NCBI RefSeq assembly: GCF_027622855.1
Contig: NZ_JAPZVR010000004.1
Coordinates: 370,210-434,209, forward strand
DNA length: 64,000 bases
Reading direction: 5' to 3'
DNA from: Glycomyces algeriensis
GTDB taxonomy: Bacteria; Actinomycetota; Actinomycetes; Mycobacteriales; Micromonosporaceae
Shown: piece by piece, positions 6,593 through 32,643 of the stretch
Layout: each line of letters opens with the position of its first letter
How positions within the stretch are numbered: position 1 is the stretch's first letter
Program-made: the position numbers and the translations under genes
The notes under the pieces: generated by a model
What the model saw: the letters and a program-made list of their open reading frames with translations, nothing else
What the model was told of the DNA's origin: nothing
Databases searched by the model: none

Positions 6593-6626
6593 AATTCGGT
6601 TGGGTCGAGTCCGAATCGGCGGCCCG

Positions 6627-6632
6627 TATAAT
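6627..6632 (+). promoter_or_regulatory. Consensus -10 box for the acetyltransferase/epimerase pair
   Basis: A perfect TATAAT at 6627-6632, 55 bases before the ATG at 6687, stands out in GC-rich sequence. No good -35 lies 16-18 bases upstream (GTCGAG at 17); the nearest TTG-type hexamer (TTGGGT at 6600) is 21 bases away. This may be an activator-dependent promoter. Confidence 0.5.
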
Positions 6633-6686
6633 TCGCCCAGCGGGCGCCGGCCGCCGGCCGCGCCATTTCTCTATCGAAAGCAGCAC

Positions 6687-10062: not shown

Positions 10063-10123
10063 ATCGGGGACGGTCCTTCCAGATTCCCGTCGGCCGGCGA
10101 AAACGGCCGCTGCTCGAGACTGC

Positions 10124-10152
10124 ATAGTACGGAACGAGGTCATTCACCTTTC
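10124..10152 (-). promoter_or_regulatory. Promoter of the 8524-10062 glycosyltransferase
   Basis: Minus-strand GAAAGG (10152-10147), 17-base spacer ending in CCG, then TACTAT (10129-10124), 61 bases before the start. Same -35 hexamer, spacer length, CCG preceding the -10 and upstream bases as the promoter at 6449-6477. Confidence 0.6.
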
Positions 10153-17052: not shown

Positions 17053-17072
17053 AGGTGTTCTCCCGAGGAGGT

Positions 17073-18113
17073 TCAGCGGCCGGTGGCCGGCACGTCGGCG
17101 GTTTCGGTGGCGGCAGGATCGAGGTCGACGGTGCGGCCGGTGGCGGCCGACCGCAGCATCTGCTCGGAGACGACCACGGTGGCGAGGCCCTGGCGCAGGT
17201 CCACGATGCCCGCGTCCTTGCCGAGGACGGCGTCGCGGAACTGCTCGTGCTCGACCAGGAGCGGCTCGCGCTTGCGGATGGCGTACCTGATCATGTCGCC
17301 TTCGGACACGCCGCGGAAGGCCCTGAGGGCCTCCCACTCGTTGTCCTGCACGCCGTTGGCGTAGAAGGTGAGGTCTCCGGTGAGGGTGTCCGCGATGAAG
17401 CAGCCGCGGTCGCCGGTGACGACGGCGGTGCGCTCCTTGAGCGGGCTCAGCCAGTTCACGGAGTGGTTGACGATCGCGCCGCCGGAGAGGCGGCCGACGG
17501 CGGAGAGCATGTCCTCGTGCTCGCGTCCCGAGCGGGACACGGTGTTCGCGGTGATCGACCGGTAGGACTGGCCGGTGACCCACGAGGTGAGGTCGATGTC
17601 GTGGGTGGCGAGGTCCTTGACCACGCCGACATCGGCGATGCGGTGCGGGAAGGGGCCCTGGCGGCGGGTGACGACCTGGAGGACCTCGCCGAGCTCGCCG
17701 GCTTCGAGGCGCTCGCGCAGGCTCATGATCGCGGGGTTGTAGCGCTCGATGTGGCCCACGCCGGCGACGAGGCCGCGGGAGCCGAAGGCCTCGGCGAGGA
17801 GGGACGCGGCCGCGGTGGTGTGCGCGAGCGGCTTCTCGATGAGCGCGTGGATCCCGGCTTCGGCGAGGGCCAGGCCGACGGGCTCGTGGTAGGCGGTGGG
17901 GCAGGCGACGACGGCGTAGTCGACGCCGACGGCGATCAGCTCCTCCACGGTGGCGACGAGCGCGGCCCCGGAGGGGACGGCGGAGGCGTCGGCGACCGGG
18001 TCGGCGACGGCGACGAGGGCGACGCCGTCGAGGGAGTTGAGGACGCGGGCGTGGTTGCGGCCCATGGCCCCGAGGCCGATGAGGCCGGCGCGCAGCAGGG
18101 GCTCGGTGGTCAC
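17073..18113 (-). CDS. Gfo/Idh/MocA oxidoreductase (WbpB-like)
   Basis: A 346-residue NAD(P)-dependent oxidoreductase. The N-terminal Rossmann domain has AGLIGLGAMGRNHARVLN, and the family's EKPLAHT motif (catalytic lysine) is near residue 100. The substrate domain includes RIADVGVVKDLATHDIDL with the expected D-x-x-x-H. It begins at a GTG that overlaps the aminotransferase stop by four bases (GTGA). In the WbpB role it oxidises the 3-OH of UDP-N-acetylglucosaminuronic acid to the 3-keto sugar, which the adjacent aminotransferase then aminates. The family is broad, so the assignment rests mainly on context. Confidence 0.83.
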   Translation of the reverse strand: MTTEPLLRAGLIGLGAMGRNHARVLNSLDGVALVAVADPVADASAVPSGAALVATVEELIAVGVDYAVVACPTAYHEPVGLALAEAGIHALIEKPLAHTTAAASLLAEAFGSRGLVAGVGHIERYNPAIMSLRERLEAGELGEVLQVVTRRQGPFPHRIADVGVVKDLATHDIDLTSWVTGQSYRSITANTVSRSGREHEDMLSAVGRLSGGAIVNHSVNWLSPLKERTAVVTGDRGCFIADTLTGDLTFYANGVQDNEWEALRAFRGVSEGDMIRYAIRKREPLLVEHEQFRDAVLGKDAGIVDLRQGLATVVVSEQMLRSAATGRTVDLDPAATETADVPATGR

Positions 18114-19213
18114 AGTCGTCCCTCCAGTCCGGTCACGGCCGCCGCGATGCGGTCGAGGTCCTCGCCCGAGAGCGAGGGGTGCACCGGGATCGAGAGGACC
18201 TCGGCGGCGGCCCGGTCGGTCTCCGGCAGATCGGCGCCGATGTCCTGGTAGGGCAGGAGGCGGTGGATCGGGGTCGGGTAGTAGACGGCCGAGCCGATGC
18301 CGTCCTCGGCGAGGAGCGCCTGGGCGCGGTCGCGGTCGCCGGCGACGCGGATCGTGTACTGGTGGTACACGTGGCGGGCTCCGGCGGCGACCGGCGGGGC
18401 GGTGACGGCGTCCAGGCCCTTGAAGGCGGCGTCGAAGCGGGAGGCGTTGGCGCGGCGGGTCTCGGTCCACTCCTCGAGGCGGCCGAGCTGGACCCGGCCG
18501 ATCGCGGCGGACACGTCCGTCATGCGCATGTTGGCGCCGACGATCTCGTTGGCGTACCGCTGCTCCATGCCCTGGTTGCGCAGCAGGCGCAGGGTGCGGG
18601 CGAGCTGCGGGTCGTCGGTGGTGACCATGCCGCCTTCGAGGGCGTGCATGTTCTTGGTGGGGTAGAAGCTGAAGGTGCCGGCCTTGCCGAAGGAGCCGAC
18701 GGGGGTGTCGTCCAGAGCGGCGGCGTGGGCCTGGCAGGCGTCCTCGAGGATGGCGAGGCCGTGGCGTTCGGCCAGCGCGGTGAGCGCCCGCATGTCGGCG
18801 GGGTTCCCGTAGAGGTGGACGGGCATGATCGCGGCGGTCCGGGGGCCGATCGCGGCCGCGGCGGCCTCGGGGTCGAGGTTGAACGAGCCGGGCTCGATGT
18901 CGGCGAAGACGGGGTCGGCGCCGACGAGGCGCACGGCGTTCGCGGTGGCGGCGAAGGAGAAGGAGGGCACGACCACCTCATCGCCGGGGCCGATGCCCAT
19001 GGCGAGGAGCGCCAGCTGGAGCGCGGAGGTGCCGGAGTTGACGGCGACGGCGTGGGCGGTCCCGGAGACCTTGGTGAACTCGTCTTCGAAGGCCGCCACT
19101 TCAGGGCCTTGGACGACCATGCCGCTGCGCAGGACCGCGACGGCCGCTTCGATCTCGGCTTCACCGATGACCGGTGCGGCGCCGGGGATCGGTTCGTGAC
19201 TCTGGCTGCTCAA
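18110..19213 (-). CDS. DegT/DnrJ/EryC1 sugar aminotransferase (WbpE-like)
   Basis: A PLP-dependent aminotransferase of 367 residues if read from the TTG at 19213, which has GGAG eight bases before it and begins SSQSHEPIPGAAPVIG. An in-frame ATG at 19246 lacks a ribosome site and is the alternative. Signatures are VNSGTSALQLALLAMGIG, VLEDA-type LAILEDACQAH, and the Schiff-base lysine in SFYPTKNMHALEGG. In the WbpE role it transfers an amino group from glutamate to the 3-keto carbon of the UDP-uronate. It is the first gene of the leftward trio, and its product pool would feed the acetyltransferase at 6687-7307. A TATATT on the minus strand about 45 bases upstream may be the -10. Confidence 0.86.
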   Translation of the reverse strand: MSSQSHEPIPGAAPVIGEAEIEAAVAVLRSGMVVQGPEVAAFEDEFTKVSGTAHAVAVNSGTSALQLALLAMGIGPGDEVVVPSFSFAATANAVRLVGADPVFADIEPGSFNLDPEAAAAAIGPRTAAIMPVHLYGNPADMRALTALAERHGLAILEDACQAHAAALDDTPVGSFGKAGTFSFYPTKNMHALEGGMVTTDDPQLARTLRLLRNQGMEQRYANEIVGANMRMTDVSAAIGRVQLGRLEEWTETRRANASRFDAAFKGLDAVTAPPVAAGARHVYHQYTIRVAGDRDRAQALLAEDGIGSAVYYPTPIHRLLPYQDIGADLPETDRAAAEVLSIPVHPSLSGEDLDRIAAAVTGLEGRL

Positions 19214-19466
19214 TTCCTCAGCTCCAATTGCTCTGCGACTCGGCATGAACGCGATGAATATAGGCCGATCTAGGGAGATGGCCTGCGACGGGGGTGTCGA
19301 ATTGTCTAAACCGCACACGTTCATCTGCTACCCGAGGGGCTGATCCCCGTTTTGCGGACTTTCCGGATAAGTGCCGGGAATCAACCGGTGAATGGCCTGT
19401 GAACATGACTTGAATTGCGGGACGGGATCGTGCGCATGATTCTCCGGGCGATCCGGGGCATGGCGG

Positions 19467-21098
19467 TCAGCGTCCGAGTACCCGCTTGAGGCGGCCCCGC
19501 ACCAGTCCGGCGGTGGAGACGCGCTGGACCTTGAGGACCGCGCGGCCGCGCTTGTCGGCCCGGACGTGGAGCTTCCAGCCGCGCAGGCCTCTGCGGACGC
19601 CGTGGGTCCAGGCACCGGCCGGGACGGCCAACGGCAGGTCGTACGTGTGGCCGCGAAGGTCGATGCGGAGGCGGAGCGTCCATTCGGCGCCGTCGACGGC
19701 TGCGGCGAGGGCGCGGTAATCGACGGTGACGCGGGCGGTCGAGCGTGTGCCGTCGAGCGGTTCGAACACGACGGAAGCGTGCTGCGGGGCCGCGGCTGCA
19801 TCGGCCGGATCGCAGGCGGGGCCGGGGACCGGGCCGGAGAGGCGGACCGCGGCGGCGGCGAATCCGGCGAAGGAGTCCGTGCCGGTGAAGGGAGCGGTGG
19901 CGCTGATCGGAAAGGTGAAGGTCAGCTCCCCTTCGGGCCTCAGCTTGACGGCGGCGGGTCTGAGCGCGGCGGCGAGGCGGCCGGTCACGGTCTCCTCGGT
20001 GATCTCGTAGTTCCGGTCGTCGAGTCCGGCGAGGCGGTCGCGGTAGCCGGGGTAGTCGCACCAGGCGCGGTCCGCATCGAAGTGGAACGAGGGCCGGTCG
20101 GGTCCGGCGATGAACCGCCGCAGCAGCGGCAGGCGCTCGGGTCGGGCGAGGACCACCCGGAGGCGCTTGGCGAGGGCGAGGCGGTCGCGGATCGCGTCGG
20201 TGAAGTAGGCGTCGGCGAGTTCGGCGAGGCCTTCGCACACCTTGGCCTGGTCGGCCTCGTCGAGATCGAGGAAGTCGGCCTGGAGCAGGTTGAACAGTTC
20301 GACGTGAAAGTGGCGCATGAGGACCGCGTCGCGCTTGGGTCCGGGCTCGAGGAGCCCGGCGGTGAAGTGCATGATGCGGGCCATGCAGGCGAGCCGCTGG
20401 AGGTGGTCGATGCTGTAGGTGATGTTGCTGTCGTCGTCGCGGCGGATCGCGTAGTAGTAGTCGTAGTCGCCGAGGACGGTGATGCGGCGGGCGCGGATCA
20501 TCGCCTCGATGGTGAACGGCTGGTCGGAGCCGAAGCGCATGTCGACGGGGTAGCGCAGCGAGTACTTCTCGACGAGCTCGCGGCGGAAGAGCTTGGTGTT
20601 GGAGACCGCCCAGGGGAGCTTCGAGTCGTAGAAGTCGATGTCGGGGCCGGTCTGCGCGAACGCCTGCTTGGAGACCCCCTTGCCGTTGACGCCGACCATC
20701 TTCCCGGCGACCACGTCCGCCTCGTTGGCGTCGGCGGCGGCGACCATCCGCTCCAGGGCCTCATGGCCGAGGCAGTCGTCGGCGCCGATGAAGAACACGT
20801 ACCGGCCGCGGGCGTGGTCCAGGCCGAGGTTGCTCGGGGCCGCGGGGCCGCCGGAGTTGGCCTGGTGGAGCACGCGCACGACGCCGGGGTGCCGCTCGGC
20901 GAAGCGGTCGAGCTCCTCGCCGCTGCCGTCCGTGGACCCGTCGTCGACCGCGACGACCTCGAGCCGGTCGGCCCCGATGCTCTGCGTCACGAGCGACTCC
21001 AGGCACTTCACCAGGTAAGGCATGGTGTTGTACACGGCCACGATGACGCTGACGTCGGGCACCGAAGCAGCGTCGTCGGCGGACGGTCCATGGGACAC
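19467..21098 (-). CDS. Glycosyltransferase family 2, TarS/TarP-like
   Basis: A 543-residue enzyme from a GTG at 21098 with GGAGG five bases upstream; an in-frame ATG at 21140 lies upstream. The N-terminal GT-A domain starts VSVIVAVYNTMPYLVKCLES and holds VDDGSTDGSG, the metal-binding region FFIGADDC, and GVNGKGV, which I recall from staphylococcal TarS. The usual catalytic ED pair reads SD here (GSDQPF); the aspartate is kept. The C-terminal 200 residues are beta-rich with a basic tail, as in the trimerisation or accessory region of TarS. By analogy it would decorate ribitol-phosphate teichoic acid with a sugar on the inner face of the membrane. It is divergent from the CDP-ribitol synthase gene, which supports that role. 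Confidence 0.8.
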   Translation of the reverse strand: MSHGPSADDAASVPDVSVIVAVYNTMPYLVKCLESLVTQSIGADRLEVVAVDDGSTDGSGEELDRFAERHPGVVRVLHQANSGGPAAPSNLGLDHARGRYVFFIGADDCLGHEALERMVAAADANEADVVAGKMVGVNGKGVSKQAFAQTGPDIDFYDSKLPWAVSNTKLFRRELVEKYSLRYPVDMRFGSDQPFTIEAMIRARRITVLGDYDYYYAIRRDDDSNITYSIDHLQRLACMARIMHFTAGLLEPGPKRDAVLMRHFHVELFNLLQADFLDLDEADQAKVCEGLAELADAYFTDAIRDRLALAKRLRVVLARPERLPLLRRFIAGPDRPSFHFDADRAWCDYPGYRDRLAGLDDRNYEITEETVTGRLAAALRPAAVKLRPEGELTFTFPISATAPFTGTDSFAGFAAAAVRLSGPVPGPACDPADAAAAPQHASVVFEPLDGTRSTARVTVDYRALAAAVDGAEWTLRLRIDLRGHTYDLPLAVPAGAWTHGVRRGLRGWKLHVRADKRGRAVLKVQRVSTAGLVRGRLKRVLGR

Positions 21099-21514
21099 TG
21101 CAGCCTCCAAGGGGGAACGTGAAGGAAATGAATGCGCCATAGCCGAGCCGAGAACATCGCGGTTTCAGCGGTGCGACACGAAGGTAAACAGCATACTCCC
21201 GGACGCCGCGGAGCCCGGATACGCGGGTCGGCAACGGTCCGGGCACGCCTGCGCGGGTGCAGGCGCGACGCCGAGCGCGACCGTCCGCACACCTGGCGGA
21301 GACCGGGATCATACGGATGAACGTGCGGCAACAGCCAGGGGGACGGAAGTGGGCCCGATGCTAAAATCCCTCCAGCGAGTCCGGCCATAGGCAGCAGGCG
21401 CACCGGCCGCCGCATCACGCCCACCGCCGCGGCCGACCGCACGGCGACCAATCCGAGCGCAGGGCGGGTCGTCCCCTTACTTTTACGGGCAACGAAAACG
21501 AGGAGGACCGGATC
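21099..21514. other. Divergent intergenic region of the teichoic-acid genes
   Basis: A 416-base gene-free stretch between the TarS-like gene and the CDP-ribitol synthase gene. A small hairpin (GCCTGC, loop of six, GCAGGC; 21247-21264) and a TAAAAT hexamer (21362-21367) without a good -35 are all I can see. AGGAGGA at 21501-21507 is the ribosome site of the rightward gene. Confidence 0.5.
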
Positions 21515-22996
21515 TTGTCGAACCACGGAGCCGAGTCGCGTCCGGGCATCACCGCGGTGGTCCTGGCGGGCGGCACCGGCCAGCGAGTCGGACTGAGCAT
21601 CCCCAAGCAGCTCATCAAGATCGCAGGCAAGCCAGTGATCCAGCACACCCTCGAAGCCTTCGAGGCCGCCGACGAGATCGACGACATCCTCGTCCTCATG
21701 GCCGAAGGCTACATCGACGACGTCAAAGCCATCGTCGCCAAGGCCGGTCTCACCAAGGTCACCGACGTCATCCCCGGCGGCGCCACCCGCTCCGACAGCA
21801 CCAAGGCCGCCATCAGCCACATCGAGGGCCGCGAACACGCCTCCGAAGAGCACCGGCTGATCTTCCACGACGCCGTCCGCCCCCTCATCTCCCGCCGCGT
21901 CATCACCGAGACCGTCGCGGCCCTGGAACGCTACGACGCCGTCGACGTCGCGATCCCCTCCGCCGACACCGTCATCGTCACGCGCACCCACGGCGAGGAC
22001 GGCGAGTTCATCACCGACGTGCCCGATCGCGCCCGCCTGCGTCGCGGCCAGACCCCCCAGGCGTTCAAGCTCCGCACCATCCGCGCCGCCTACGTCGAAG
22101 CCGACAAGGACCCCCACTTCGAGGCCACCGACGACTGCTCCGTCGTACTCAAGTACCTCCCCAGCGTCCCGATCCACGTCGTCGCCGGCGACGAATGGAA
22201 CATGAAGGTCACGCAGCCCGTCGACCTCTACATCGCCGACAAGCTGTTCCAGCTCGCCTCGACCGCGACCCCCACGCTCACCGACGAGCAGTACCGCGCC
22301 CGCCTCACCGGCAAGACCCTCGTGGTCTTCGGCGGCTCCTACGGCATCGGCGCCGACCTCGCCGACCTCGCCGAGTCCTACGGCGCCGACGTCTTCCGCT
22401 TCGGGCGCTCCACCACCGGCACCCACGTCGAGAACCCCGACGAGGTCGCCGCCGCGCTCACCGAGGCCCACGGCAAGACCGGCCGCGTCGACTACGTCGT
22501 CAACACCGCCGGCATCCTCCAGATCGGGAGGCTCAACGAGACCACCCAAGCCGACATCGACAACACCTTCAAGGTCAACTACCTCGCGCCCGTCCAGATC
22601 GCCCGCGCCGCCTACCCGTACCTGGCCCGGACCCAGGGACAGCTCCTGCTCTACACGTCCTCCAGCTACACCCGGGGCCGACGCGACTACAGCCTCTACT
22701 CCTCCACCAAGGCGGCCATGGTGAACCTCACCCAGGCCCTCGCCGAGGAATGGAGCGACGAAGGGGTGCAGGTCAACTGCGTCAACCCGGAACGCACCGC
22801 CACCCCCATGCGCACCAAGGCGTTCGGCTCGGAGAATCCCGAAACCCTCCTCGCCTCCGAGGCGGTGGCCCGGACCTCCCTGGACGTGCTGCTGTCCGCC
22901 CTCAACGGCGCGGTGATCGACGTGCGCCGGGACGACCCCACCACCGGGGGCTTCGAGCAGGCCATCGCCCGCGTCCTCGACACCGGCATCGAATAG
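21515..22996 (+). CDS. Bifunctional CDP-ribitol synthase: cytidylyltransferase-reductase fusion (Bcs1/Acs1-like)
   Basis: A 493-residue two-domain enzyme. Residues 10-245 are an IspD/TarI-type cytidylyltransferase: AVVLAGGTGQRVGLSIPKQL at the start, FHDAVRPLIS, and a TDDCSVV segment. Residues 265-490 are a short-chain dehydrogenase: the dinucleotide loop GGSYGIG at 273-279, NTAG, serines at 382-384 and the Y395-x3-K399 pair. This domain order is that of Haemophilus Bcs1/Acs1, which reduces ribulose 5-phosphate and activates the ribitol 5-phosphate to CDP-ribitol. In firmicutes the same two steps use separate TarI and TarJ (an alcohol dehydrogenase), so this is a different solution. The start is TTG, set by AGGAGGA. 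Two polymerase genes follow in the same direction. Confidence 0.86.
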   Translation: MSNHGAESRPGITAVVLAGGTGQRVGLSIPKQLIKIAGKPVIQHTLEAFEAADEIDDILVLMAEGYIDDVKAIVAKAGLTKVTDVIPGGATRSDSTKAAISHIEGREHASEEHRLIFHDAVRPLISRRVITETVAALERYDAVDVAIPSADTVIVTRTHGEDGEFITDVPDRARLRRGQTPQAFKLRTIRAAYVEADKDPHFEATDDCSVVLKYLPSVPIHVVAGDEWNMKVTQPVDLYIADKLFQLASTATPTLTDEQYRARLTGKTLVVFGGSYGIGADLADLAESYGADVFRFGRSTTGTHVENPDEVAAALTEAHGKTGRVDYVVNTAGILQIGRLNETTQADIDNTFKVNYLAPVQIARAAYPYLARTQGQLLLYTSSSYTRGRRDYSLYSSTKAAMVNLTQALAEEWSDEGVQVNCVNPERTATPMRTKAFGSENPETLLASEAVARTSLDVLLSALNGAVIDVRRDDPTTGGFEQAIARVLDTGIE

Positions 22997-23055
22997 GCCC
23001 GGACTCGCTCCACGACCGGTCCGGCCGCAACCAGACGAGATAGGAAACCGACGTC

Positions 23056-25308
23056 ATGTCCATGCGCGCTCTGCTGAGGAGCACGGCTATCCAGGAGGCC
23101 GGCCCCGCTGGGCTCGCGCTGACGGGGCTCATGCTGGCCACCTACCCGGCGATGCTGGTGGCCGCCCTCGTCCCCTCCCCCGCCGCCTTCACCGCCGCGC
23201 TCGTCGCCAGCTACGCGACCGACATCATCCTGCACGGGCGCTACCAGGACCTCATCGCCCGCCTCCGCCAGCTGCGCTTCGGCATCTCGAACCGGTTCCT
23301 CGTCCGCGAACTGCTCGTCATCCTGCTCGTCACGCGCTTGGTCGGGAGCCACGGCCTCAGCTACCGGGCGGTCCTGCTCGCCACGCTCGCCTTCGTGGCG
23401 CTCGTGGCCGTGCAGGTCCTCCACGGCGGCCTGACCGCGATGGTCCGCAAGTCCCGGACCCTTCCGTTCGCCTCCCGCAACATCGACCTCTCCCCTCTGG
23501 CCATCTCGGACGCGCCGCCGGCGTGGCTGGAGAACCGCGCGGGCGAGAAGATCCTCCACACCGACGTGCCGCTCGTCGCCGGCCTGCTGGTCTCCTCCTT
23601 CACGCTCACCAACACGCCCGGGTACATCGGCGTCACGGTCACGTTCGCGCTCGCCGTCGGCTACCTGCTGGTCCTCGGCGTGTGGTCCGGCCCGGGGCAC
23701 CGGGTGCCGAGCAACGGCAAAGCCCTCGCCTGGCTCAACCGATGGCTCGCCGCCCACCAGCCCACGGTCGTGCTGTCCTTCTCCGGCTCCAAAGAGGCCA
23801 CCTACCAGGTCAACATGTGGCTGGAGACCCTGGAGCGCATGGAGGGCGAACGACCGCTGGTGATCCTGCGCGAGATGCACTCGATGCCCGACCTGGCCCG
23901 CACCGACGTCCCGGTCCTGTGCGTGCCGAGCGCCGTCGACATCATGAACATGGACCTGTCCAGCGTGCGCGTGGCCGTCTACCCGGCGCACGTGGGCAAG
24001 AACCTGCACCTGCTGCGCGTGCCGACCATGAAGCACGCCTTCATCGGCCACGGCGACAGCGACAAGGTCGCCAGCATCAACCCCTTCGGCAAGGCCTACG
24101 ACGAACTGTGGACCGCCGGCAAAGCCGGGCGGGACCGCTGGGCCCGGGCCGACATCGGCGTCCGCGACGAGGACATCGTCGAGGTCGGCAGGCCCCAGCT
24201 CGACGTCATCGACACCGCGCCCGTCGGCGGTGAGATCCCCACCGTGCTGTACGCGCCCACGTGGGAGAACTGGACCGACGACCCGGGCACCACTTCGGTG
24301 ACCGTGCAGGGCGAGATCATCGTCAAGGCGCTCCTGGCGGCCGAGCCGCCGGTGCGGGTGGTCTACAAGCCGCACCCGTTCACCGGGACCCGCTCCGCCA
24401 AGGCGAAGGCCGCCGACCGCCGCATCCGCGCACTCATCGAGGACGCCAACCAGCGCTCGGGCGCGGCCCCGACCGCGGTCGTCCCTCCCCCGCCCGGGCT
24501 GGTCGACGACGAGACCGCGAAGCTCCAATGGGGCGACGCGGCCACGTCCCGCAACGCCGTCACCACGCGCGCCGAGGTCGCCGCCGAACGGCAGGCCGCC
24601 TCCGAATGGAACGCGGCGTTCTGGGCGGCGCAGCCCGCGAACCGGCACCTGGTGGTCACCGGCGCCCTTCCGAACGTCTACGACTGCTTCAACCGGGCCG
24701 ACGGCCTGGTCTCGGACATCTCCAGCGTCGTCTCCGACTTCATCGCCAGCGGCAAGCCGTACGCGGTCGTCGACTCGGCCGGCGTCGGCGAGGAGGCCTT
24801 CAAGGCCGCCAACACCGCCGTGCGCGCCGCGGTCATCCTCGACCCGAAGGCCCACGGGCTCCAGGACCTGCTCGCCGCCGTCCGCGACCCCGAGCACGAC
24901 CCGCTCAAAGCGGCCCGCAAAGAACTCAAGACCTACCTGCTCGGGCCCGACGAGCCTTCCGCGCAGAAGCGGTTCGACCAGGCCGTTCAGGAACTGGCCA
25001 AGCGGGCCGAGGAACGCAACCGGGCCCAGCTCAGCGCGGAAGCGGCGAACGACCTCGCCGAGACCGTCGCAGTCGACGGCACGGTCGGGAACGGCGCGAT
25101 CGAGTACGGCACAGTCGAGGCGGTGACCGTCGAGACGGCCACTGCGGATGACGGCACGGTCGAGGACGGGATCGAACCCGTCGAACCCACGGAGATCACC
25201 GCGCCGGACCCGGGCACCGTCGAGGCCTCGGAGACGAGCGTCCTGGAGGCCGGCACCGCCGAAGCCGAGGCTCCGGGCCCCCGGGCCGCCTCGAACAGCG
25301 TCGACTGA
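23056..25308 (+). CDS. Membrane-associated TagF/TarL-like polyol-phosphate polymerase
   Basis: A 750-residue protein. Residues 1-220 hold four to five hydrophobic segments (for example LMLATYPAMLVAALV and VLLATLAFVALVAVQVL, and a pair around residues 175-215). The catalytic domain (about 235-650) matches the CDP-glycerol/CDP-ribitol phosphotransferase superfamily: FIGHGDSDK, VEVGRPQLDV, VLYAPTWENW, VVYKPHPF and DGLVSDISSVVSDFIASGKP. It would transfer polyol phosphate from the CDP-polyol made by the preceding gene. The final 80 residues are an acidic, Thr-Val-Glu-rich low-complexity tail. The next gene starts eight bases after the stop and encodes a second polymerase-like enzyme. Primer, priming enzyme or main polymerase cannot be distinguished. 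Confidence 0.82.
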   Translation: MSMRALLRSTAIQEAGPAGLALTGLMLATYPAMLVAALVPSPAAFTAALVASYATDIILHGRYQDLIARLRQLRFGISNRFLVRELLVILLVTRLVGSHGLSYRAVLLATLAFVALVAVQVLHGGLTAMVRKSRTLPFASRNIDLSPLAISDAPPAWLENRAGEKILHTDVPLVAGLLVSSFTLTNTPGYIGVTVTFALAVGYLLVLGVWSGPGHRVPSNGKALAWLNRWLAAHQPTVVLSFSGSKEATYQVNMWLETLERMEGERPLVILREMHSMPDLARTDVPVLCVPSAVDIMNMDLSSVRVAVYPAHVGKNLHLLRVPTMKHAFIGHGDSDKVASINPFGKAYDELWTAGKAGRDRWARADIGVRDEDIVEVGRPQLDVIDTAPVGGEIPTVLYAPTWENWTDDPGTTSVTVQGEIIVKALLAAEPPVRVVYKPHPFTGTRSAKAKAADRRIRALIEDANQRSGAAPTAVVPPPPGLVDDETAKLQWGDAATSRNAVTTRAEVAAERQAASEWNAAFWAAQPANRHLVVTGALPNVYDCFNRADGLVSDISSVVSDFIASGKPYAVVDSAGVGEEAFKAANTAVRAAVILDPKAHGLQDLLAAVRDPEHDPLKAARKELKTYLLGPDEPSAQKRFDQAVQELAKRAEERNRAQLSAEAANDLAETVAVDGTVGNGAIEYGTVEAVTVETATADDGTVEDGIEPVEPTEITAPDPGTVEASETSVLEAGTAEAEAPGPRAASNSVD

Positions 25309-25316
25309 GGACGACC

Positions 25317-26963
25317 GTGCACCTGCTCCGCAAGCTCCTGTCCCGCACCGCGACCACTGGACTCGCCGCCGCCGCCCTGGCCTCCGCGGTCCTCCCGTGG
25401 ACCTGGTCCGCCTGGGCCGCATGGGCACTCGCCACCACGGCACTGCTCCTGGCCTGGCGGGCCCACCGCGAGCTCGGACCCGAACGGGACCGGTTCGCCC
25501 GAGGCGTCGCCATCGCGGCGATCAGCGTCGTCGCGGCGCAGCAGGGCCCGATCCCGGCCGCCCTGGCCGGAGGCGCGCTCATCGCGGTGGTCGGCTTCGA
25601 GCCGCTGCTCGCGGTCGCCGTCGCCACCGGGCACATGGACAGTGCGAACCTCGCGGTGACTCGGGAGCGCGCGTGGTTCACGCCGCGGGTCATGGGCGAG
25701 GCCCTCAGCGCCGGCGGCGGCGTGTTCGCCGCTGCGGGCGCGCTCGCGCTGACGGCGGACACGAGCCTGCCGCTGTGGATCGCCGCGGTCGCCGCGGCCG
25801 CCACGGTGGGCGCAGCAGCTGCCGGAGCGCTCGGGGCGCTGCTGCGGCGGCGCCGTTCGGCCCACGCCGGCGACGCGGCCGTCATCCAGGCGCTGGAAGC
25901 GCTCGAACCCGTCTTCATCGTGCATTTCTCGGGCCCGCCGGCCTCGGCGTACCAGCTGGAGATGTGGCTGCCCTACCTCGACCGGCTCGGCGACCCCTAT
26001 GTGGTGGTCGCCCGTGAGAAGGTCCACCTGGACGAGCTGCGCGGCTCCACCGGCGCGCCGATCGTGGTGGCCCCGTCGATGTCGGAGCTGGAGCGGCTGC
26101 TCGTCCCGAGCGTCAAGGCCGCCTTCTACGTCAACGGGTCCGCGCTGAACACGCACCTGGTGCGGTTCGGGCAGCTGAAGCACCTGCAGCTGTTCCACGG
26201 CGAATCCGACAAGGCCTCGAGCTTCAACAAGGTCACCGCGATATACGACACCGTGTTCGTGGCCGGGCAGGCCGCCGTCGACCGCTACCGGGCGCACGGC
26301 CTGGACCTGGACTTCCGGGAGGTCGGCCGACCGCAGCTCGCTTCGATCGCGGCCGGTCCGCGCACCGCCTCGGGCCCCAGGCCGGTGCTGCTGTACGCGC
26401 CGACGTGGACCGGCCTGACGAGCGAGTTCGACTACTCGTCGCTGGCGATCGGGCGGCTGATCGTGGAGGAGGCGCTGCGGCGCGACCTCGCGGTCATCAT
26501 GCGGGCGCACCCGTACACGCGGTTCAACCTGGCCGCCGCAAGGCGGCTCGACGAGATCGAGCGGATCCTCGCCGAGGACGCCGAGAAGTCCGGACGGGCG
26601 CACCTGTGGGGCGCGCAGGCGACCGGCTCGGTGTCGCTCGTCGACTGCGTCAACGCGGCCGACATCGCGGTGTGCGACGTCAGCGGCGTCGCCACCGACT
26701 GGATCGCCGCCGACCGCCCGTTCGCGGTCACCGACATGGGCGGCCTCGGCGAGCACTTCGCCGACGAGGCCTGGATCGCCAAGGGCGCGTATCGGATCGA
26801 TCGGGACGGCTCCAACCTGGAGTCGGTCTTCCGCGAACTGCTCGACACCGATTCGAAAGCGGCGCAGCGCAAGGAGACCCGCGAATACTTCCTCGGCACC
26901 GCTTCGGGCGAGGAGAGCGTGGAAGTGTTCGTGCACGCGGCTCGCGCGGCATATCGCGACTGA
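25317..26963 (+). CDS. Second TagF/TarL-like polyol-phosphate transferase
   Basis: A 548-residue paralogue of the preceding enzyme, from a GTG with GAGGA just upstream. Residues 1-180 contain about five hydrophobic segments (LAAAALASAVLPWTWSAWAA, then ALAGGALIAVVGFEPLLAVA and others). The catalytic part has LQLFHGESDKASS, VGRPQLASI, VLLYAPTWTGL, VIMRAHPYTRF and ADIAVCDVSGVATDWIA, the same order as its neighbour. It lacks the long acidic tail. Two such enzymes in tandem suggest one adds the first unit(s) and the other extends the chain, as TarF and TarL do, but which is which cannot be read here. Both are probably at the inner membrane surface. Confidence 0.82.
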   Translation: MHLLRKLLSRTATTGLAAAALASAVLPWTWSAWAAWALATTALLLAWRAHRELGPERDRFARGVAIAAISVVAAQQGPIPAALAGGALIAVVGFEPLLAVAVATGHMDSANLAVTRERAWFTPRVMGEALSAGGGVFAAAGALALTADTSLPLWIAAVAAAATVGAAAAGALGALLRRRRSAHAGDAAVIQALEALEPVFIVHFSGPPASAYQLEMWLPYLDRLGDPYVVVAREKVHLDELRGSTGAPIVVAPSMSELERLLVPSVKAAFYVNGSALNTHLVRFGQLKHLQLFHGESDKASSFNKVTAIYDTVFVAGQAAVDRYRAHGLDLDFREVGRPQLASIAAGPRTASGPRPVLLYAPTWTGLTSEFDYSSLAIGRLIVEEALRRDLAVIMRAHPYTRFNLAAARRLDEIERILAEDAEKSGRAHLWGAQATGSVSLVDCVNAADIAVCDVSGVATDWIAADRPFAVTDMGGLGEHFADEAWIAKGAYRIDRDGSNLESVFRELLDTDSKAAQRKETREYFLGTASGEESVEVFVHAARAAYRD

Positions 26964-27179: not shown

Positions 27180-28817
27180 ATGACAACGCCTCTCGTGTCG
27201 GTCGTCATCCCCGTCCACAATGCCATGCCCTACCTGCTCAAGGGCCTGCAGTCCGTCGTGGACCAGACGATCGGGGTCGAGAACCTCGAGATCATCGCGG
27301 TCGACGACGGGTCGACCGACGGCAGCGGCGAGGCCCTCGACAAGTTCGCCCTCGACCACCGCGACCTCCTCAGGGTCGTGCACCAGGAGGCCTCCGGGAC
27401 GCCGAGCGCCCCGCGCAACCTGGCGATGGACATGGCCCGCGGCCGCTACATCCAGTTCCTCGACGCCGACGACTACCTCGGCGCGGAGGCCCTGGAGCGG
27501 ATGGTCGCCGTTGCCGAGGCCCAGGGCTCGGACGTCGTCCTGGGGAAGCTCGTCAGCGTCGGCGGCCGCCGCGTCGCGGGTTCGATGTTCGACCGCGACC
27601 AGCCGCGCGCCGACCTCTACTCCTCCCGCGTGTACTGGTCATTGGGCGCTTGGAAGCTGTATCGCCGCGAGCTGCTCGACCGGCACGGCCTGCGCTTCCG
27701 AACGGACCGCCGGACCGGTGAGGACCGCCCGTTCGTGTTCCTGTCGTACTTCCACGCCCGCAACATCTCCGTGGTCGCCGAATACGACTGCTACTACATG
27801 GTGCAGCGCGACGACGGCGGCAACCTCACCCTCGGCGGGATGGGCGCCCCCAAGGACCGCAGCTTCAACAACGAGAGCCCTCTGGAGATGATGGTCCCGC
27901 TCGTCGGCGCCACCGTCCCCGCCGGACTCGGCCGCGACCACCTCCTGTTCCGGCACTGGGAGGTCGAAGGCGAGATCGAGTTCCGCATCATCGCGAACGA
28001 CCGCTCCCGCGAACGACAGGAGGCCCGCCTGCAGCAACTGCGGGCCCTGCTGGAGGAGTGGTACTCGCCGCGCGGCACGAAGCACCTCAAGGCCCATATG
28101 CACCTGCTCTACCACCTGGTGCGGACCGCGACGCTCGACGAGGTCCTGCTCGCCCATCGGCACCGCGACAGCGTCCCGCTCGTCGGACGTGCCGGCCGCC
28201 TCTACGCGGTCCTGCCCGGCCACGAGGACCAGGCCGGACCGGGCCCGGGCCCCTGGGTCGACGTCACCGACATCTCCCGGCCCGAGCACTGGCTCGACGG
28301 CGTGGAGGCCGAAGGCACCGCGCTGCGCCTCAACGGCAGCTGCTGGTTCCGGAAGATCCCCAACGACCGGGTGGAGCTGCGCCTGGAACTGCGCCATCGC
28401 CGCAACGGCCAGGTCAAGCCGTTTCCGCTCGAGCACGAGAACGGGCGGTTCGGCACCGAACTGGACCTGTGCCGCGACCTCGGCCCGATCGACCGGGCCA
28501 AGGGCACGTGGGACATCGAGCTGGTCGCCGCCGTGGGCGACTTCGAGCGGCGCGTCCCGTTCGGCAGTTCCCTGGGCGCCCCGATGCGCGGCAAGCCGGT
28601 GCCCCTGCACCGGCTCGACATCCCCCACCAGCCGCCGCGCACGATCCCGGCCACGCAGTACTTCACCGCGGTGAAGAGCCACCTGGCCCTGCAGGTGGGC
28701 GGGAAGCGGGTGCGGCAGGGCGCCGGCGGGCACTCACGGCTGCGGCAGGAGATCGGCGCCCGCCTGAAGCTGCGCCAGCGCCTCGGCAAGGTCAAACGGC
28801 GGCTCCTGCGCCGCTGA
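27180..28817 (+). CDS. Glycosyltransferase family 2, TarS/TarP-like
   Basis: A 545-residue enzyme with AGGA-type ribosome site before the ATG. The GT-A domain runs to about residue 230: VSVVIPVHNAMPYLLKGLQS, VDDGSTDGSG, QFLDADDYLG (metal site), and the catalytic GEDRPFVF. It continues with a VAEYDCYYMVQRDDGGN segment, and a beta-rich C-terminal domain with a strongly basic tail ending KVKRRLLRR. Closest relative in the window is the next gene (28952-30535); the N-terminal 60 residues are nearly the same. By analogy with TarS it would glycosylate ribitol-phosphate chains. It lies 216 bases after the polymerase genes, so it may have its own promoter. Confidence 0.8.
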   Translation: MTTPLVSVVIPVHNAMPYLLKGLQSVVDQTIGVENLEIIAVDDGSTDGSGEALDKFALDHRDLLRVVHQEASGTPSAPRNLAMDMARGRYIQFLDADDYLGAEALERMVAVAEAQGSDVVLGKLVSVGGRRVAGSMFDRDQPRADLYSSRVYWSLGAWKLYRRELLDRHGLRFRTDRRTGEDRPFVFLSYFHARNISVVAEYDCYYMVQRDDGGNLTLGGMGAPKDRSFNNESPLEMMVPLVGATVPAGLGRDHLLFRHWEVEGEIEFRIIANDRSRERQEARLQQLRALLEEWYSPRGTKHLKAHMHLLYHLVRTATLDEVLLAHRHRDSVPLVGRAGRLYAVLPGHEDQAGPGPGPWVDVTDISRPEHWLDGVEAEGTALRLNGSCWFRKIPNDRVELRLELRHRRNGQVKPFPLEHENGRFGTELDLCRDLGPIDRAKGTWDIELVAAVGDFERRVPFGSSLGAPMRGKPVPLHRLDIPHQPPRTIPATQYFTAVKSHLALQVGGKRVRQGAGGHSRLRQEIGARLKLRQRLGKVKRRLLRR

Positions 28818-28951: not shown

Positions 28952-30535
28952 ATGTCCGCACCTGCACCCACCGTCAGCGTCGTCATTCCCGTGCACAACG
29001 CGATGCCGTACCTGCTCAAGACCGTCAACTCCGTGCTGGAGCAGACGATCGGCAAGGACCGGCTCGAGGTCATCGCGATCGACGACGGGTCGACCGACGG
29101 GAGCGGTGAGGCGCTCGACGAGTTCGCCGCCGCGGAGCCCGGCATCGTGCGGGTCGTGCACCAGGAGGCTTCCGGCGGCCCCAGCGCCCCGCGCAACCGC
29201 GGCATGGACCTGGCCCGCGGTGAGTTCGTGTTCTTCCTCGACGCCGACGACTACTTCGGCCCCGAGGCCCTGGAACGCCTCGTGAAGGCCGCGAACGAGA
29301 ACGACTCCGATGTGGTGCTGGGCAAGGGCGTGGGCGAGGGCGGGCGGGTCCCGCCCATGTCGATGTTCAAGGCGAACCAGCCGCGCGCGGACCTGTACTC
29401 GTCCCGCGTGTACTGGACGCTGGCCCCGTGGAAGCTGTACCGGCGCTCCCTCATCGAGCGGCACCAGCTGCGCTTCCCCACGGGAGTGCGGATCGGCGAG
29501 GACCAGCCGTTCGGGTTCTGGGCGTATTTCCACGCGTCGAACATCTCGGTGGTCGCCGACTACGACTGCGTGCACGTGATCCGCCGCGAGGACGGCGGCA
29601 ACATCACCTCCGGGGCCGGGCTGGACCCGCGCCGCTGGGAGCACTCGGACACCCGGACCTTGACGACGATGGTGGACCTGGTCGGCAAGAACGTCCCGGC
29701 AGGCCCGAAGCAGGACCACCTCATGCACCGCCACTGGGAGGTCGAGGGCGTGGGCGTCCTCAACCGGGTGATGCGGATTCCGACTGCGGAGGTCCGCGAC
29801 GAGCAGGTCGCGCTGACGAGGGCGCTGCTGGACCGCTGGTACACGCCGGAGACGGCGCGGCGCCTGCGACCCGACCTGCGGCTGTCCTACCACCTCGTGC
29901 AGCACGGCACCACCGATGAGGTGCTGCAGTCGCGCAAGCAGAAGGACAACATCAGCCTGGCCGGGCGCGGCGACCGTGTGTACGCGGTCCTGCCCGGCAG
30001 CGAAGCGACGGCGGGGATCGCCCCGGGCCCGTGGGTCGACATCACGGACGCGGTGTCGCTCAAGCACTGGCTCGACGGCGTGGCCGTGGACGGCACGGTG
30101 CTGCGCGTGTCCGGGACGGGGCGGCTCTCGCGGGTCCCTGCCGAGCGGCTGGGGCTGCGGCTGGCATTGCGCCGGCGCGGCACCAAGGAGGTCCGCGAGT
30201 TCCCGCTCGAGCACGAGGACGGGGTGTTCACCGCCGTGATCGACGTGGCCCGCGACCTGGGCGAGCCGAAGGCGGCGGCCGGGGTGTGGGACTTCGAGAT
30301 CGTCGCCTCGATCGACGAGTTCGAGCGCCGGGCCAAGTTCGGGTCCTCGCTGGGCAAGCCGATGCAGGCTCGCGGGCGCTTGGTGCACACGCTGCGCGAG
30401 CACGGGCGGCTGCGGGCTCCGGCGGTCGCGAAGCAGTACTTCACGGAGGGCGCGAAGCGGCTCGCGGTGCGGGTCTACGGCCCGCCGTCCCTGCGGCGCA
30501 CCCTGGGCGCGATGAAACGGCGCATCCTCGGTTAA
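28952..30535 (+). CDS. Glycosyltransferase family 2, TarS/TarP-like
   Basis: A 527-residue GT-A enzyme very like the product of 27180-28817: VSVVIPVHNAMPYLLKTVNS, IDDGSTDGSGEALDEF, FFLDADDYFG, and catalytic GEDQPFGF. The C-terminal domain repeats the same blocks as its neighbour (PGPWVDITD, HWLDGV, FPLEHEDG, KFGSSLGKPM) and ends in a basic helix. This is a tandem duplication followed by divergence, so the two enzymes may add different sugars or anomers to the same polymer. It converges on the gene at 30697-32643 across a G-tract/C-tract hairpin. Confidence 0.8.
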   Translation: MSAPAPTVSVVIPVHNAMPYLLKTVNSVLEQTIGKDRLEVIAIDDGSTDGSGEALDEFAAAEPGIVRVVHQEASGGPSAPRNRGMDLARGEFVFFLDADDYFGPEALERLVKAANENDSDVVLGKGVGEGGRVPPMSMFKANQPRADLYSSRVYWTLAPWKLYRRSLIERHQLRFPTGVRIGEDQPFGFWAYFHASNISVVADYDCVHVIRREDGGNITSGAGLDPRRWEHSDTRTLTTMVDLVGKNVPAGPKQDHLMHRHWEVEGVGVLNRVMRIPTAEVRDEQVALTRALLDRWYTPETARRLRPDLRLSYHLVQHGTTDEVLQSRKQKDNISLAGRGDRVYAVLPGSEATAGIAPGPWVDITDAVSLKHWLDGVAVDGTVLRVSGTGRLSRVPAERLGLRLALRRRGTKEVREFPLEHEDGVFTAVIDVARDLGEPKAAAGVWDFEIVASIDEFERRAKFGSSLGKPMQARGRLVHTLREHGRLRAPAVAKQYFTEGAKRLAVRVYGPPSLRRTLGAMKRRILG

Positions 30536-30696: not shown

Positions 30697-32643
30697 CTAG
30701 CGGCGCTTGAGCATCCGCTTGGCCTTGCGCGCGGCCCGGCGCGCGAGCGAGGGCCGGCGGGGTTCGGCGGTCTCGTCCTTCCCGAAGTCCGACTTCGCGT
30801 GGACGACGGCCGGCTCCCGGCCGTGACGCTGCTCCAGGGCGAGCGGGAGGGGGATCTCGGGGCCCCCGGCGAAGCCGGCGGCGACCTTCCACCGGCCCGG
30901 TTCGAGGCCGTCCGTGGGGAGTTTCACCTGCAGTTCGCCGATGCCTCTGACGGGCTGCACGAGTGCTGGGGATTCGACGCGGCGCCCGTCGGTGTCGTGC
31001 GTGAACGCGACGACGGCTTCGCTGGGCCCGGACGCGTAGCTGGGGAGACCGATGTGGAGGGCGCCGGACTCGATGCGGGCCGCTTCGGGCCGCAGTTTCG
31101 CGAAGTACCTGGCGGGCTGGGAGGTGGCGGCGGCGACGTCGAGGGAGAGGTTCCCGTACGGGTGGGTCCAGTAGGGCACGGCCAGGCGCCCGGCGACGAC
31201 GCCGGCGGCGCGGTGGCCTTCGACGGCGGTGGCCCGCAGGGAGCCGAGCCGGACCTCCTTGGTCCACCCGGAGAGGCTGAGGCGCACGAGGAGGTCCCAG
31301 AGGCCCCGACCCAGGGGTTTGCCGCCCGCGGCCGTCTCGGGGTCGATGGGGGCGTTGCAGCGCAGCACCAACCGGGTCTCAGTGCCGTCGGCGACGGCTT
31401 CGCGCTGAATCTCGACTTTCTGGAAGAAGTCGGCGCCGGTGGATCGTTCGCGGACGACGAGGTCGACTTTGGCGGTGTCGAATCCGGCGTCGACGAGGCC
31501 GAGGTCGTCGAGGGCCTGGCGGGCTTCGGGCGAGAGTGGCAGGTCGGGGCGGGGCCCGGAGGGGCCGTCGCGGAAGACCAGGGGTTTGCCGTTGGCTTCG
31601 TACCAGGCTTGGAAGTCGAGCCAGAGGGAGCCGTTGTGCCAGGCGAGTCCTTCGAGGGACGCGGCCGGTTTGAGTCTGGGCTCCCAGGCGGCGAGGGCTT
31701 CGAGGTCGGCCAGCCGGTCGGCGAGGGTCAGGCCGGCGACGATCCGCTGGATGGGTTGGAGGCCGGCGGCGACGCCGGGGCCGAGGCGGGCGGAGGTGCG
31801 GCGGACGGCGGCGAACATCTGGGCCCGGTAGTCGGCGGGCTGGTCGAGGAAGCGGCGCCCGCGCAGGGGTTCGACCATCTCGACGCGCAGCCAGCGGCGC
31901 AGGACCTTGTCGCGGGCGGGGCCGGGCTCGGTGTACTTCTCGACGACGTCGATGGACTTGCCGAGTTTGGCGAAGTAGTCGTCGGGGTCGAGGCGCTGCT
32001 GGCTGATGTTGACGCCGTCGTCGCGGCGGACGTGGTAGTAGCAGGTGTAGTCGGCGAGGACGGCGACGCTGCGGGCGCGGAGGTACACCTCGGAGACGAA
32101 GAGGTGGTCCTCGAGGCGGTGCTTTCCGACGGGGAAGCGGATGCTGGTCTCATTGAGGAATGCGCGACGGATCATCTTGTGGCAGGTGAGGCTGTCCATC
32201 AAAGGAGCATTGTGGACGGTGCATTTGGGTCGGTTGCGGCGGAACAGCTCCTTGGGGACCGCGCGGCCCCTGCCGGCCATCCTGCCGATGACGACGTCGG
32301 CGCCGTTGGCGGTCCCGTAGCGGTGCATCCGCTCCAGGGCCTCGTCGCCGAGGTAGTCGTCGTCGTCGACGAACATGACGTATTCGCCGCGGGCCCGCTC
32401 GATGCCGGTGTTGCGCGGCTTGCCGGGCCAGCCGGAGTTCTCCTGGTGGACCACGTGGAAATGGGGGTGCTCGGCGGCGAGGCGGTCGAGGACCTCGCCG
32501 GTGCCGTCGGTGGAGCCGTCGTCGACGAACACGGCCTCGAACTCGTCCGGCGCGAGGCTCTGCCGCAGCAGCGCGTCGACGTTGTCCTGGAGGTTCGCGC
32601 CCGTGTTGTAGACGGGGACGATTACGGAGACTTTGATCGTCAT
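30697..32643 (-). CDS. Glycosyltransferase family 2, TarS-like, longest paralogue
   Basis: A 648-residue enzyme. The GT-A domain begins VSVIVPVYNTGANLQDNVDA and contains VDDGSTDGTG, the metal site FVDDDDYLG and catalytic LEDHLFV. GRAVPKELFRRN corresponds to the GRGVPQSMF region I recall in TarS. The region after residue 330 is longer than in the other three paralogues and appears to contain two consecutive beta-sandwich-like domains before a basic tail (RRAARKAKRMLKRR). It is transcribed towards the other two and is preceded by a nucleotidyltransferase gene in the same direction (155-base gap). Likely another decorating enzyme of the teichoic-acid-like polymer. Confidence 0.78.
   Translation of the reverse strand: MTIKVSVIVPVYNTGANLQDNVDALLRQSLAPDEFEAVFVDDGSTDGTGEVLDRLAAEHPHFHVVHQENSGWPGKPRNTGIERARGEYVMFVDDDDYLGDEALERMHRYGTANGADVVIGRMAGRGRAVPKELFRRNRPKCTVHNAPLMDSLTCHKMIRRAFLNETSIRFPVGKHRLEDHLFVSEVYLRARSVAVLADYTCYYHVRRDDGVNISQQRLDPDDYFAKLGKSIDVVEKYTEPGPARDKVLRRWLRVEMVEPLRGRRFLDQPADYRAQMFAAVRRTSARLGPGVAAGLQPIQRIVAGLTLADRLADLEALAAWEPRLKPAASLEGLAWHNGSLWLDFQAWYEANGKPLVFRDGPSGPRPDLPLSPEARQALDDLGLVDAGFDTAKVDLVVRERSTGADFFQKVEIQREAVADGTETRLVLRCNAPIDPETAAGGKPLGRGLWDLLVRLSLSGWTKEVRLGSLRATAVEGHRAAGVVAGRLAVPYWTHPYGNLSLDVAAATSQPARYFAKLRPEAARIESGALHIGLPSYASGPSEAVVAFTHDTDGRRVESPALVQPVRGIGELQVKLPTDGLEPGRWKVAAGFAGGPEIPLPLALEQRHGREPAVVHAKSDFGKDETAEPRRPSLARRAARKAKRMLKRR

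Follow-up and report, generated by a model that had tools for sequence, protein, structure and literature searches.

We analyzed a stretch of 64,000 nucleotides from Glycomyces algeriensis (bases 370210-434209 of contig C29 in a genome of 5.59 Mb; hereafter the window), which carries a gene for a cytidylyltransferase fused to a short-chain dehydrogenase/reductase (SDR). As judged from the genes, the locus around this fusion quite probably makes a wall teichoic acid (WTA) of ribitol phosphate that bears sugars and a teichuronic-acid side polymer. Moreover, ispD of the methylerythritol phosphate (MEP) pathway is missing from its place between carD and ispF in this genome. We regard this loss as the part of the finding most deserving of experiment; the wall locus itself has already been described for Streptomyces. 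Below, genomes and sequence stretches are labelled with G and L followed by three digits, respectively.

The fusion gene and the polymerase-like genes behind it

The open reading frame of the fusion runs rightward from a TTG start and encodes 493 amino acids. Its N-terminal half matched the Pfam family IspD with 153.6 bits (residues 12-243) and its C-terminal half matched adh_short with 107.1 bits (residues 303-436), bearing out a preliminary description of this DNA, in which an IspD-type cytidylyltransferase fused to a short-chain dehydrogenase had been read here. The whole protein passed the NCBIfam model of TarI (NF001183, D-ribitol-5-phosphate cytidylyltransferase) with 182.9 bits against a cut-off of 166, and the N-terminal half alone scored 185.6 bits. 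The cut-off of the model for the MEP enzyme IspD (TIGR00453; 181.3 bits) was missed by both the whole protein and the N-terminal half (170.6 and 173.2 bits, respectively). Among the sequences of solved structures, TarI enzymes (4jis and 6xhp) were the best matches of the cytidylyltransferase half. A fold search with the structure model of the fusion, which is of modest quality (predicted local distance difference test, pLDDT, of 64), placed human ISPD (4cvh) on top over both domains with 472 columns and a loose superposition (root mean square deviation of 18), followed by TarI of Staphylococcus aureus and that of Bacillus subtilis.

We checked 23 positions, which we take to be functional sites, in 68 fusions. 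All nine positions in the cytidylyltransferase half were invariant, as were the three glycines of the glycine-rich motif in the reductase half. The only two reductase positions to vary were N330 and G333, kept in 58 and 66 of the 68 sequences, respectively. The SDR triad (S, Y and K) was conserved in 67 of the 67 rows reaching it, the one remaining row being cut by a contig end and lacking the last six positions. A cytidylyltransferase N-terminal half and an SDR C-terminal half with active-site residues are both present in a single chain, a layout that we take to define the Bcs1/Acs1 type. A reductase half of the TarJ type was ruled out, as this half is an SDR. The predicted role of the fusion in CDP-ribitol synthesis is well supported by the family scores, the conserved neighborhood and the published work on Streptomyces griseus and S. 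antibioticus described below.

Of 394 genomes sampled from the class, 65, spread over 24 of 138 genera, had a relative of the fusion (E up to 1e-100), which rules out that the fusion is a chance overlap of reading frames. In a phylum-wide sample of 396 genomes, nine including the present one had a match extending to residue 473 or further; a contig scan for relatives gave only three, probably since it was based on short peptides. The 68 fusions mentioned above comprise those of 64 genomes of the class (G704 possesses two) and the three from the contig scan; the sequence of G406, a fragment at a contig end, was left out, and the fusion of L128 is cut by a contig end. A polymerase relative of the same subtype was found in 56 of the 68 neighborhoods, with the limit on the GPT score in this count set at 90 bits by our choice. 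That the same gene order recurs in other actinobacterial genomes had been put forward as a check; in 51 of the 68, the strand of the fusion carried a TagF-family gene no more than 500 bp away. The fusion-polymerase arrangement is thus common in the class rather than an isolated case. The remaining 12 fusions were accompanied by a canonical PF04464-type gene in five cases (L121-L125) and by a LicD-type gene in two (L127 by Pfam, L045 by similarity to the L127 gene); one was cut and four had no polymerase relative nearby. As the neighbors belong to transferase families that use CDP-polyols, they support a CDP-polyol as the product of the fusion. The LicD-type genes standing in place of a TagF-family gene (L127 10580-12112 and L045 12535-14511) recall the use of CDP-ribitol by fukutin/FKRP. 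We also noticed an unfused pair, in which the TarI-like protein and the SDR are encoded by genes of their own next to a polymerase gene, in G757 and G776 (L168 12856-14338 and L198 6374-9460); G757 holds a fusion besides the pair.

The fusion gene is followed by two genes encoding proteins of 750 and 548 amino acids. Both proteins passed the gathering cut-off of PF04464 (24.3 and 33.1 bits, respectively, against 22.1) and have hydrophobic segments near the N-terminus (three and two, respectively), so that the two rightward, membrane-anchored TagF/TarL-like enzymes described earlier are confirmed at the family level. The two proteins and 18 relatives all matched PF04464 (20 of 20, E up to 0.001), and the profile made of these 20 sequences retrieved only the TagF-like Cps3D (E of 1e-5), TarL (0.0059) and TagF (0.03) among the solved structures, with Cps3D and TarL inside, and TagF outside, an E of 0.01. 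The structure model of the first protein was too poor for a fold search (pLDDT of 49), and the assignment to the polymerase family consequently rests on profiles. When the whole genome was searched with PF04464, the second protein alone was returned; as the first was missed, further weak members of this family may be encoded elsewhere in the genome.

Teichuronic-acid-type genes and the predicted polymer

In one study, ribitol phosphate is reported in the wall polymer of two Streptomyces species, S. griseus and S. antibioticus (PMC13274773). For S. griseus, the same study reports a UtrC-dependent teichuronic polymer on ribitol phosphate, as seen by nuclear magnetic resonance, and gives the utr product as a GalNAc-ManNAc3NAcA polymer joined via GlcNAc3NAcA to the ribitol 5-phosphate of teichoic acid (PMC13274773). 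SGR_4956 ('TarIJ') and SGR_4957 (TagF) are named there as WTA genes near the utr cluster, and the anchors used comprise these two along with UtrC (SGR_4943) and ribosomal proteins L21 and L27 (PMC13274773).

Between 6.5 and 21 kb of the window, we found the five kinds of enzyme named for the teichuronic-acid route of the S. griseus utr cluster (UDP-sugar dehydrogenase, Gfo/Idh oxidoreductase, DegT aminotransferase, hexapeptide acetyltransferase and 2-epimerase), a set that is absent from the preliminary account of the locus and occurs in Glycomyces niveus as well. At the family level, the aminotransferase, oxidase, dehydrogenase, N-acetyltransferase, 2-epimerase and a candidate for UtrC stand together in the window. 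The acetyltransferase has the lipopolysaccharide acetyltransferase 3mqg, presumably WlbB of Bordetella, as its nearest solved relative (E of 8.8e-43). Several of the GT4-type proteins are candidates for the TarM-like UtrF. Regarding the GT4-type pair on the plus strand, counterparts of both proteins were found in L043, and that of the second, of which the own Pfam match is under the cut-off, also in L041.

The fusion was earlier said to be surrounded by four TarS-like transferases. Four TarS-like GT2 proteins are indeed encoded here; three passed the cut-off of the TarS_linker domain and the one at 27180-28817 scored 22.3 against 27. One of the four, at 19467-21140, looks like UtrC. The latter was the best match in the window (49-53% identity) for the GT2 proteins encoded beside the dehydrogenase gene, i.e., in the position of UtrC, in L040, L043 and L076, and shared 44% identity with the corresponding protein of L124. 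The protein at 28952-30535 best matched 5tze (titled 'Glycosyl transferase'; E of 1.4e-38), which we take to be S. aureus TarS. The counterpart of the protein at 30697-32643 in L038 adjoins look-alikes of dTDP-sugar genes, as judged from their first residues.

Altogether, we envisage the following pathway. As the family scores and the conserved residues suggest, ribulose 5-phosphate would first be reduced by the SDR half, and the resulting ribitol 5-phosphate would react with CTP at the TarI half to yield CDP-ribitol. One of the tandem TagF/TarL-family proteins may prime, and the other extend, the ribitol-phosphate chain at the membrane, and three TarS-like transferases would decorate this chain. 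By comparison with S. griseus and S. antibioticus, the utr-like genes are predicted to turn UDP-GlcNAc into UDP-2,3-diacetamido uronic acids, the UtrC-like protein to place the first uronic-acid residue on ribitol phosphate and the GT4 enzymes to lengthen the uronic side chain. The preliminary description had proposed poly(ribitol phosphate) with sugar decoration. We retain the ribitol-phosphate core, for which the family scores, the neighborhood and the published Streptomyces polymers argue, but the decoration was conceived too narrowly: with a utr-type cluster and a UtrC-like transferase adjoining, it probably comprises more than simple sugars.

Several observations weigh against this reading. 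The similarity of both polymerase-like proteins to PF04464 is weak, albeit past the cut-off, and in four genomes of one genus (L107, L108, L111 and L114) no polymerase relative was found within about 9 kb of the fusion. The aminotransferase matched WbpE with an E of 1.5e-71, yet five other chains matched better, and among solved structures the oxidoreductase best matched general Gfo/Idh proteins. Across the 21-kb stretch of G. niveus, no GT2 protein had the UtrC-like protein as its best match, which leaves the UtrC part unconfirmed in that species. UtrE- and UtrI-type genes (4-epimerase and second acetyltransferase) were not recognized by Pfam among the 28 proteins of the window, and neither were genes for an exporter, an LCP ligase or the linkage unit; the exporter and ligase were not searched genome-wide, and two TagA/WecG-family proteins are encoded elsewhere in the genome. 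The fusion and a relative of the UtrB-like oxidoreductase co-occurred in 14 of the 394 genomes, close to the 12.7 expected by chance. From the lack of excess co-occurrence, we consider it probable that polymers of other kinds also draw on the uronic-acid route. In favor of the reading, on the other hand, 12 of the 14 genomes had the two genes on one contig at distances of 3-38 kb, where 0.18 would be expected within 40 kb, and the other two had them on different contigs.

Nor does the sequence by itself fix the identity of the polyol. The phosphates of arabitol, mannitol or glycerol occur in the wall polymers of other actinobacteria, and SDR enzymes presumably switch substrates easily, so that the fusion could make another CDP-polyol, such as CDP-arabitol or CDP-mannitol, for a polymer other than ribitol phosphate. 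We consider this quite improbable, given that the TarI half passes a ribitol-specific NCBIfam model and that relatives with 71-73% identity occur in the genomes of a genus with a ribitol-phosphate wall polymer in two species. This genus (g8 of the family f4) is inferred to be Streptomyces from the fusion and its Obg-like and L21-like neighbors, which were recognized by their first residues. Ribitol phosphate is the polyol that we assume for the Glycomyces polymer. The hybrid teichoic/teichuronic polymer is the receptor of Streptomyces umbrella toxins, and the locus suggests that such a polymer is produced outside Streptomyces too, in Glycomyces from a single site that encodes both the putative CDP-ribitol enzyme and the polymerases.

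The features of the locus are listed in Table 1. The nearest named source of a relative of the fusion is G. niveus (89% identity across all 493 residues), of which a stretch of 21 kb, ending within the cluster, contains counterparts with 41-89% identity, beginning with the acetyltransferase and ending with the last GT2. G. niveus also has the two genes at 14051-14851 (xylose-isomerase-like TIM-barrel) and 14911-15723 (no Pfam match), which lie within the utr-like cluster. Where the wall locus ends on the right, immediately beyond topA, a look-alike of the IS200/IS605-type TnpB was read from the sequence (36560-37816). Farther to the right, an additional UDP-sugar dehydrogenase (53109-54503, by Pfam) and, just past the window edge, a GT2 and a further dehydrogenase recognized by their first residues (L130 2288-5083) suggest a second polysaccharide cluster.

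Table 1. Genes of the wall locus, in order of position in the window, with the evidence for each assignment.
Feature	Positions	Strand	Basis
Three further GT4-type glycosyltransferases (1820-3157, 3686-4882, 4879-6396)	1820..6396	-	Pfam
Hexapeptide N-acetyltransferase, UtrJ-like	6552..7307	+	Pfam, best solved match 3mqg
UDP-GlcNAc-type 2-epimerase, UtrH-like	7304..8395	+	Pfam
GT4-type glycosyltransferase, teichuronic part	8524..10143	-	Pfam
Two GT4-type glycosyltransferases (10434-11846, 11843-13954)	10434..13954	+	Pfam
UDP-sugar dehydrogenase, UtrD-like (frame extends to 17583, domain starts near 17050)	15769..17055	-	Pfam
Gfo/Idh/MocA oxidoreductase, UtrB-like by family and neighborhood	17073..18113	-	Pfam
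DegT-type sugar aminotransferase, UtrA/WbpE-like	18110..19324	-	Pfam, solved matches
TarS-like GT2, UtrC-like candidate	19467..21140	-	Pfam, identity to GT2 in UtrC position
Predicted TarI-type ribitol-5-phosphate cytidylyltransferase (residues ~12-246) fused to SDR reductase (~260-470)	21515..22996	+	Pfam, NCBIfam, conserved residues
TagF/TarL-family (PF04464) polyol-phosphate transferase 1, putative, N-terminal hydrophobic segments	23056..25308	+	Pfam, profile
TagF/TarL-family (PF04464) polyol-phosphate transferase 2, putative, N-terminal hydrophobic segments	25317..26963	+	Pfam, profile
TarS-like GT2 glycosyltransferase, linker domain under cut-off	27180..28817	+	Pfam
TarS-like GT2 glycosyltransferase	28952..30535	+	Pfam, best solved match 5tze
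TarS-like GT2 glycosyltransferase	30697..32643	-	Pfam
NTP transferase, MobA-like/GlmU-like	32799..33536	-	Pfam, NCBIfam

Absence of ispD between carD and ispF in Glycomyces, and the wall-locus cytidylyltransferases

A search of the G. algeriensis genome with the IspD family PF01128 (E up to 0.001), which covers this one family, found no ordinary IspD. The matches were the fusion (155.8 bits), a GlmU-like protein (43.1 bits), a MocA-like protein (28.0 bits) and the NTP transferase at 32799-33536 (21.5 bits). Two of these were rejected as candidates for the MEP enzyme: the match of 520 amino acids on contig C30 reads as GlmU from its sequence, and that of 201 amino acids on C29 reads as MocA-like (28 bits), with no such match in G810 and G761 at the same threshold. 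On contig C10, ispF comes directly after carD: the matched parts lie 77 bp apart and there is no ispD between them (L134 1489-2543). IspF and IspG, the products of the two MEP genes searched for, are present in this genome, and no HMG-CoA reductase was found in it.

In G. niveus, the fusion is likewise the only convincing PF01128 match, without a MocA-like one; IspF and IspG are present and the carD-ispF gap is of 88 bp. Two other Glycomyces genomes, G761 and G798, have neither the fusion nor ispD between carD and ispF (gaps of 103 and 82 bp, respectively). Their only convincing IspD-family enzyme is a stand-alone protein in a wall locus, encoded near topA, a relative of the NTP transferase and a polymerase gene. 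Together with G754 (gap of 311 bp), five carD-ispF stretches without ispD were found (L134, L184, L185, L190 and L183). As carD and ispF are contiguous in the four Glycomyces assemblies, loss of ispD in an assembly gap is ruled out. The order carD-ispD-ispF is kept in G204, G554 and Mangrovactinospora, all of which possess the fusion too. In G763, a segment of no more than 10 kb holds carD, ispF, a relative of the NTP transferase, a TarI-like gene and two polymerase genes.

Among 61 genomes sampled from the family, an IspD of more than 190 bits was found in 50, a split match in three (G780, G781 and G794, counted as having canonical IspD) and neither in eight (G000, G761, G798, G763, G754, G795, G757 and G776) belonging to five genera. 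In all eight genomes, the remaining IspD-family enzymes are encoded in stretches with TagF-family genes. A second IspD-family enzyme, typed by score and frame length alone, was found in 10 of the 53 other genomes. Fisher tests on these counts (p of 1.5e-5, and of 0.0012 by genus, uncorrected for kinship) are weak, as some IspD-family enzyme is present in every genome and absence of the usual one goes halfway toward implying another kind.

From these genomes, we tentatively consider that ispD was lost from carD-ispD-ispF in Glycomyces and that its job may be carried by the wall-locus cytidylyltransferase, which would feed both the polymer and the undecaprenyl carrier. The fusion would then act as the IspD of the MEP pathway, either in addition to its wall role or as its chief function, making CDP-methylerythritol besides CDP-ribitol. 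Such double duty, possible but short of being the likelier outcome, is favored by the position of the fusion as the sole convincing PF01128 member found in two genomes that keep ispF and ispG. Against it, the fusion missed the cut-off of the IspD equivalog model and bears V, G and C, residues of the TarI type, at the positions of A108, A163 and A192 in Escherichia coli IspD, as do 66 of the 66 other fusion sequences; 32 of 32 canonical IspDs have A at the first and third positions and V, A or I at the second. These positions presumably matter for the substrate. The comparison covered 128 different domain sequences of 190-300 residues scoring over 55 bits, in which 'canonical' stands for over 190 bits to the IspD of G554 and 'fusion' for the score combined with a C-terminal tail of over 200 residues; L128 was assigned manually to the fusions, and eight sequences of interest were displayed separately. 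In addition, mouse ISPD, which synthesizes CDP-ribitol, is reported to have been inactive on methylerythritol phosphate (PMC4873967).

In the wider family, the takeover by a wall-locus enzyme may have begun with the stand-alone enzyme beside the polymerase genes. With the IspD model, five stand-alone enzymes reached 177-192 bits (two exceeding the cut-off), and with the TarI model 136-163 bits (none exceeding it), so that we lean toward regarding them as nearer to IspD than to TarI. At two of the three discriminating positions, those of G761, G798 and G763 carry residues typical of IspD. A clean separation of the groups is not achieved by the two models, as the fusion of G554 (L098, end cut) missed both cut-offs (171.8 bits for IspD and 160.0 for TarI); the pieces of L167, L197, L196 and L098 were cut by coordinates and their scores may be too low. 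In a tree of 46 sequences, which contains several long branches and leaves out G763, G795 and G776, the proteins of G761, G798 and G754 fell on the TarI side of the split with support of 94/95, whereas the stand-alone protein of G757 was on the opposite side with a very long branch. The fusions of G. algeriensis and G. niveus grouped with that of G246, a g8 genome, with support of 95/81; a wider group with L005 of a named Streptomyces was weak (87/45), as was the separation from the fusions of G204 and G554. We infer a history in which canonical ispD was lost in an ancestor, the wall-locus enzyme took over, and the latter was later replaced by a fusion from a Streptomyces-like donor. The stand-alone enzyme would accordingly be gone from G. 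algeriensis and G. niveus, with the TarI-SDR fusion possibly left to do its work.

The main rival for the MEP step is the NTP transferase at 32799-33536, or else an enzyme that we did not recognize, in which case the fusion would be a CDP-ribitol synthase only. The NTP transferase is conserved at 80-84% identity in the wall loci of G761, G798 and G763 (L166 8820-9512, L167 7818-7126 and L197 7553-8239), about as well as IspF in the same genomes (74-92%), and scores about 21 bits with PF01128. Its best family matches are, however, of the GlmU and MobA types and not IspD, and no relative was found in the wall-locus stretches of G754 and G795, both of which lack the usual IspD. No solved relative was retrieved by sequence search, and we suspect a cytidylyltransferase of the LicC type. 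We regard this alternative as unlikely. Takeover by the wall-locus cytidylyltransferase, if true, would have rendered an enzyme of a secondary wall polymer essential for isoprenoids, a natural case of enzyme replacement, and would tie the polymer supply directly to that of the carrier lipid. Glycomyces would then offer a ready test of whether TarI-type enzymes can act on methylerythritol phosphate; if double duty is wrong, these genomes would harbor an unrecognized enzyme for the third MEP step, which would be equally interesting.

Searches of the literature, which are weak on subscription journals, found no publication that joins Glycomyces, ribitol and teichoic acid, none on the bifunctional ribitol cytidylyltransferase Bcs1 and, among titles and the openings of abstracts, none on ispD replaced by a TarI-type enzyme. 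Glycomyces is not mentioned in the main text of PMC13274773.

Comparison with described systems

The cytidylyltransferase half of the Glycomyces fusion is of the TarI type as in S. aureus and B. subtilis. In contrast to the separate TarJ of these bacteria, which we take to be of the MDR type, its reductase half is an SDR and fused. The domain order is presumably that of Haemophilus Bcs1/Acs1. Human ISPD/CRPPA, in which a cytidylyltransferase is followed by a second Rossmann-type domain, resembles the fusion as the top fold match over both domains, albeit loosely superposed, and differs from it in that the SDR residues S, Y and K are kept in the fusions (67 of 67 complete rows). The polymerase-like proteins share PF04464 with TagF/TarL (3l7i and 8va1), the sole solved relatives by profile besides Cps3D, but the similarity is weak and the Glycomyces proteins have N-terminal hydrophobic segments.

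The utr region of S. griseus is alike in having a TarI-reductase gene beside a TagF gene, a UtrC-type transferase and the five kinds of sugar-nucleotide enzymes nearby. The Glycomyces locus differs in its two tandem TagF-family genes after the fusion, its four TarS-like transferases, its gene order and its chromosomal place, with no Obg or L21 genes seen by the fusion, and in a host without ordinary ispD. As the arrangement of SGR_4956 and SGR_4957 is already in print, the Glycomyces locus is a further case of a described arrangement.

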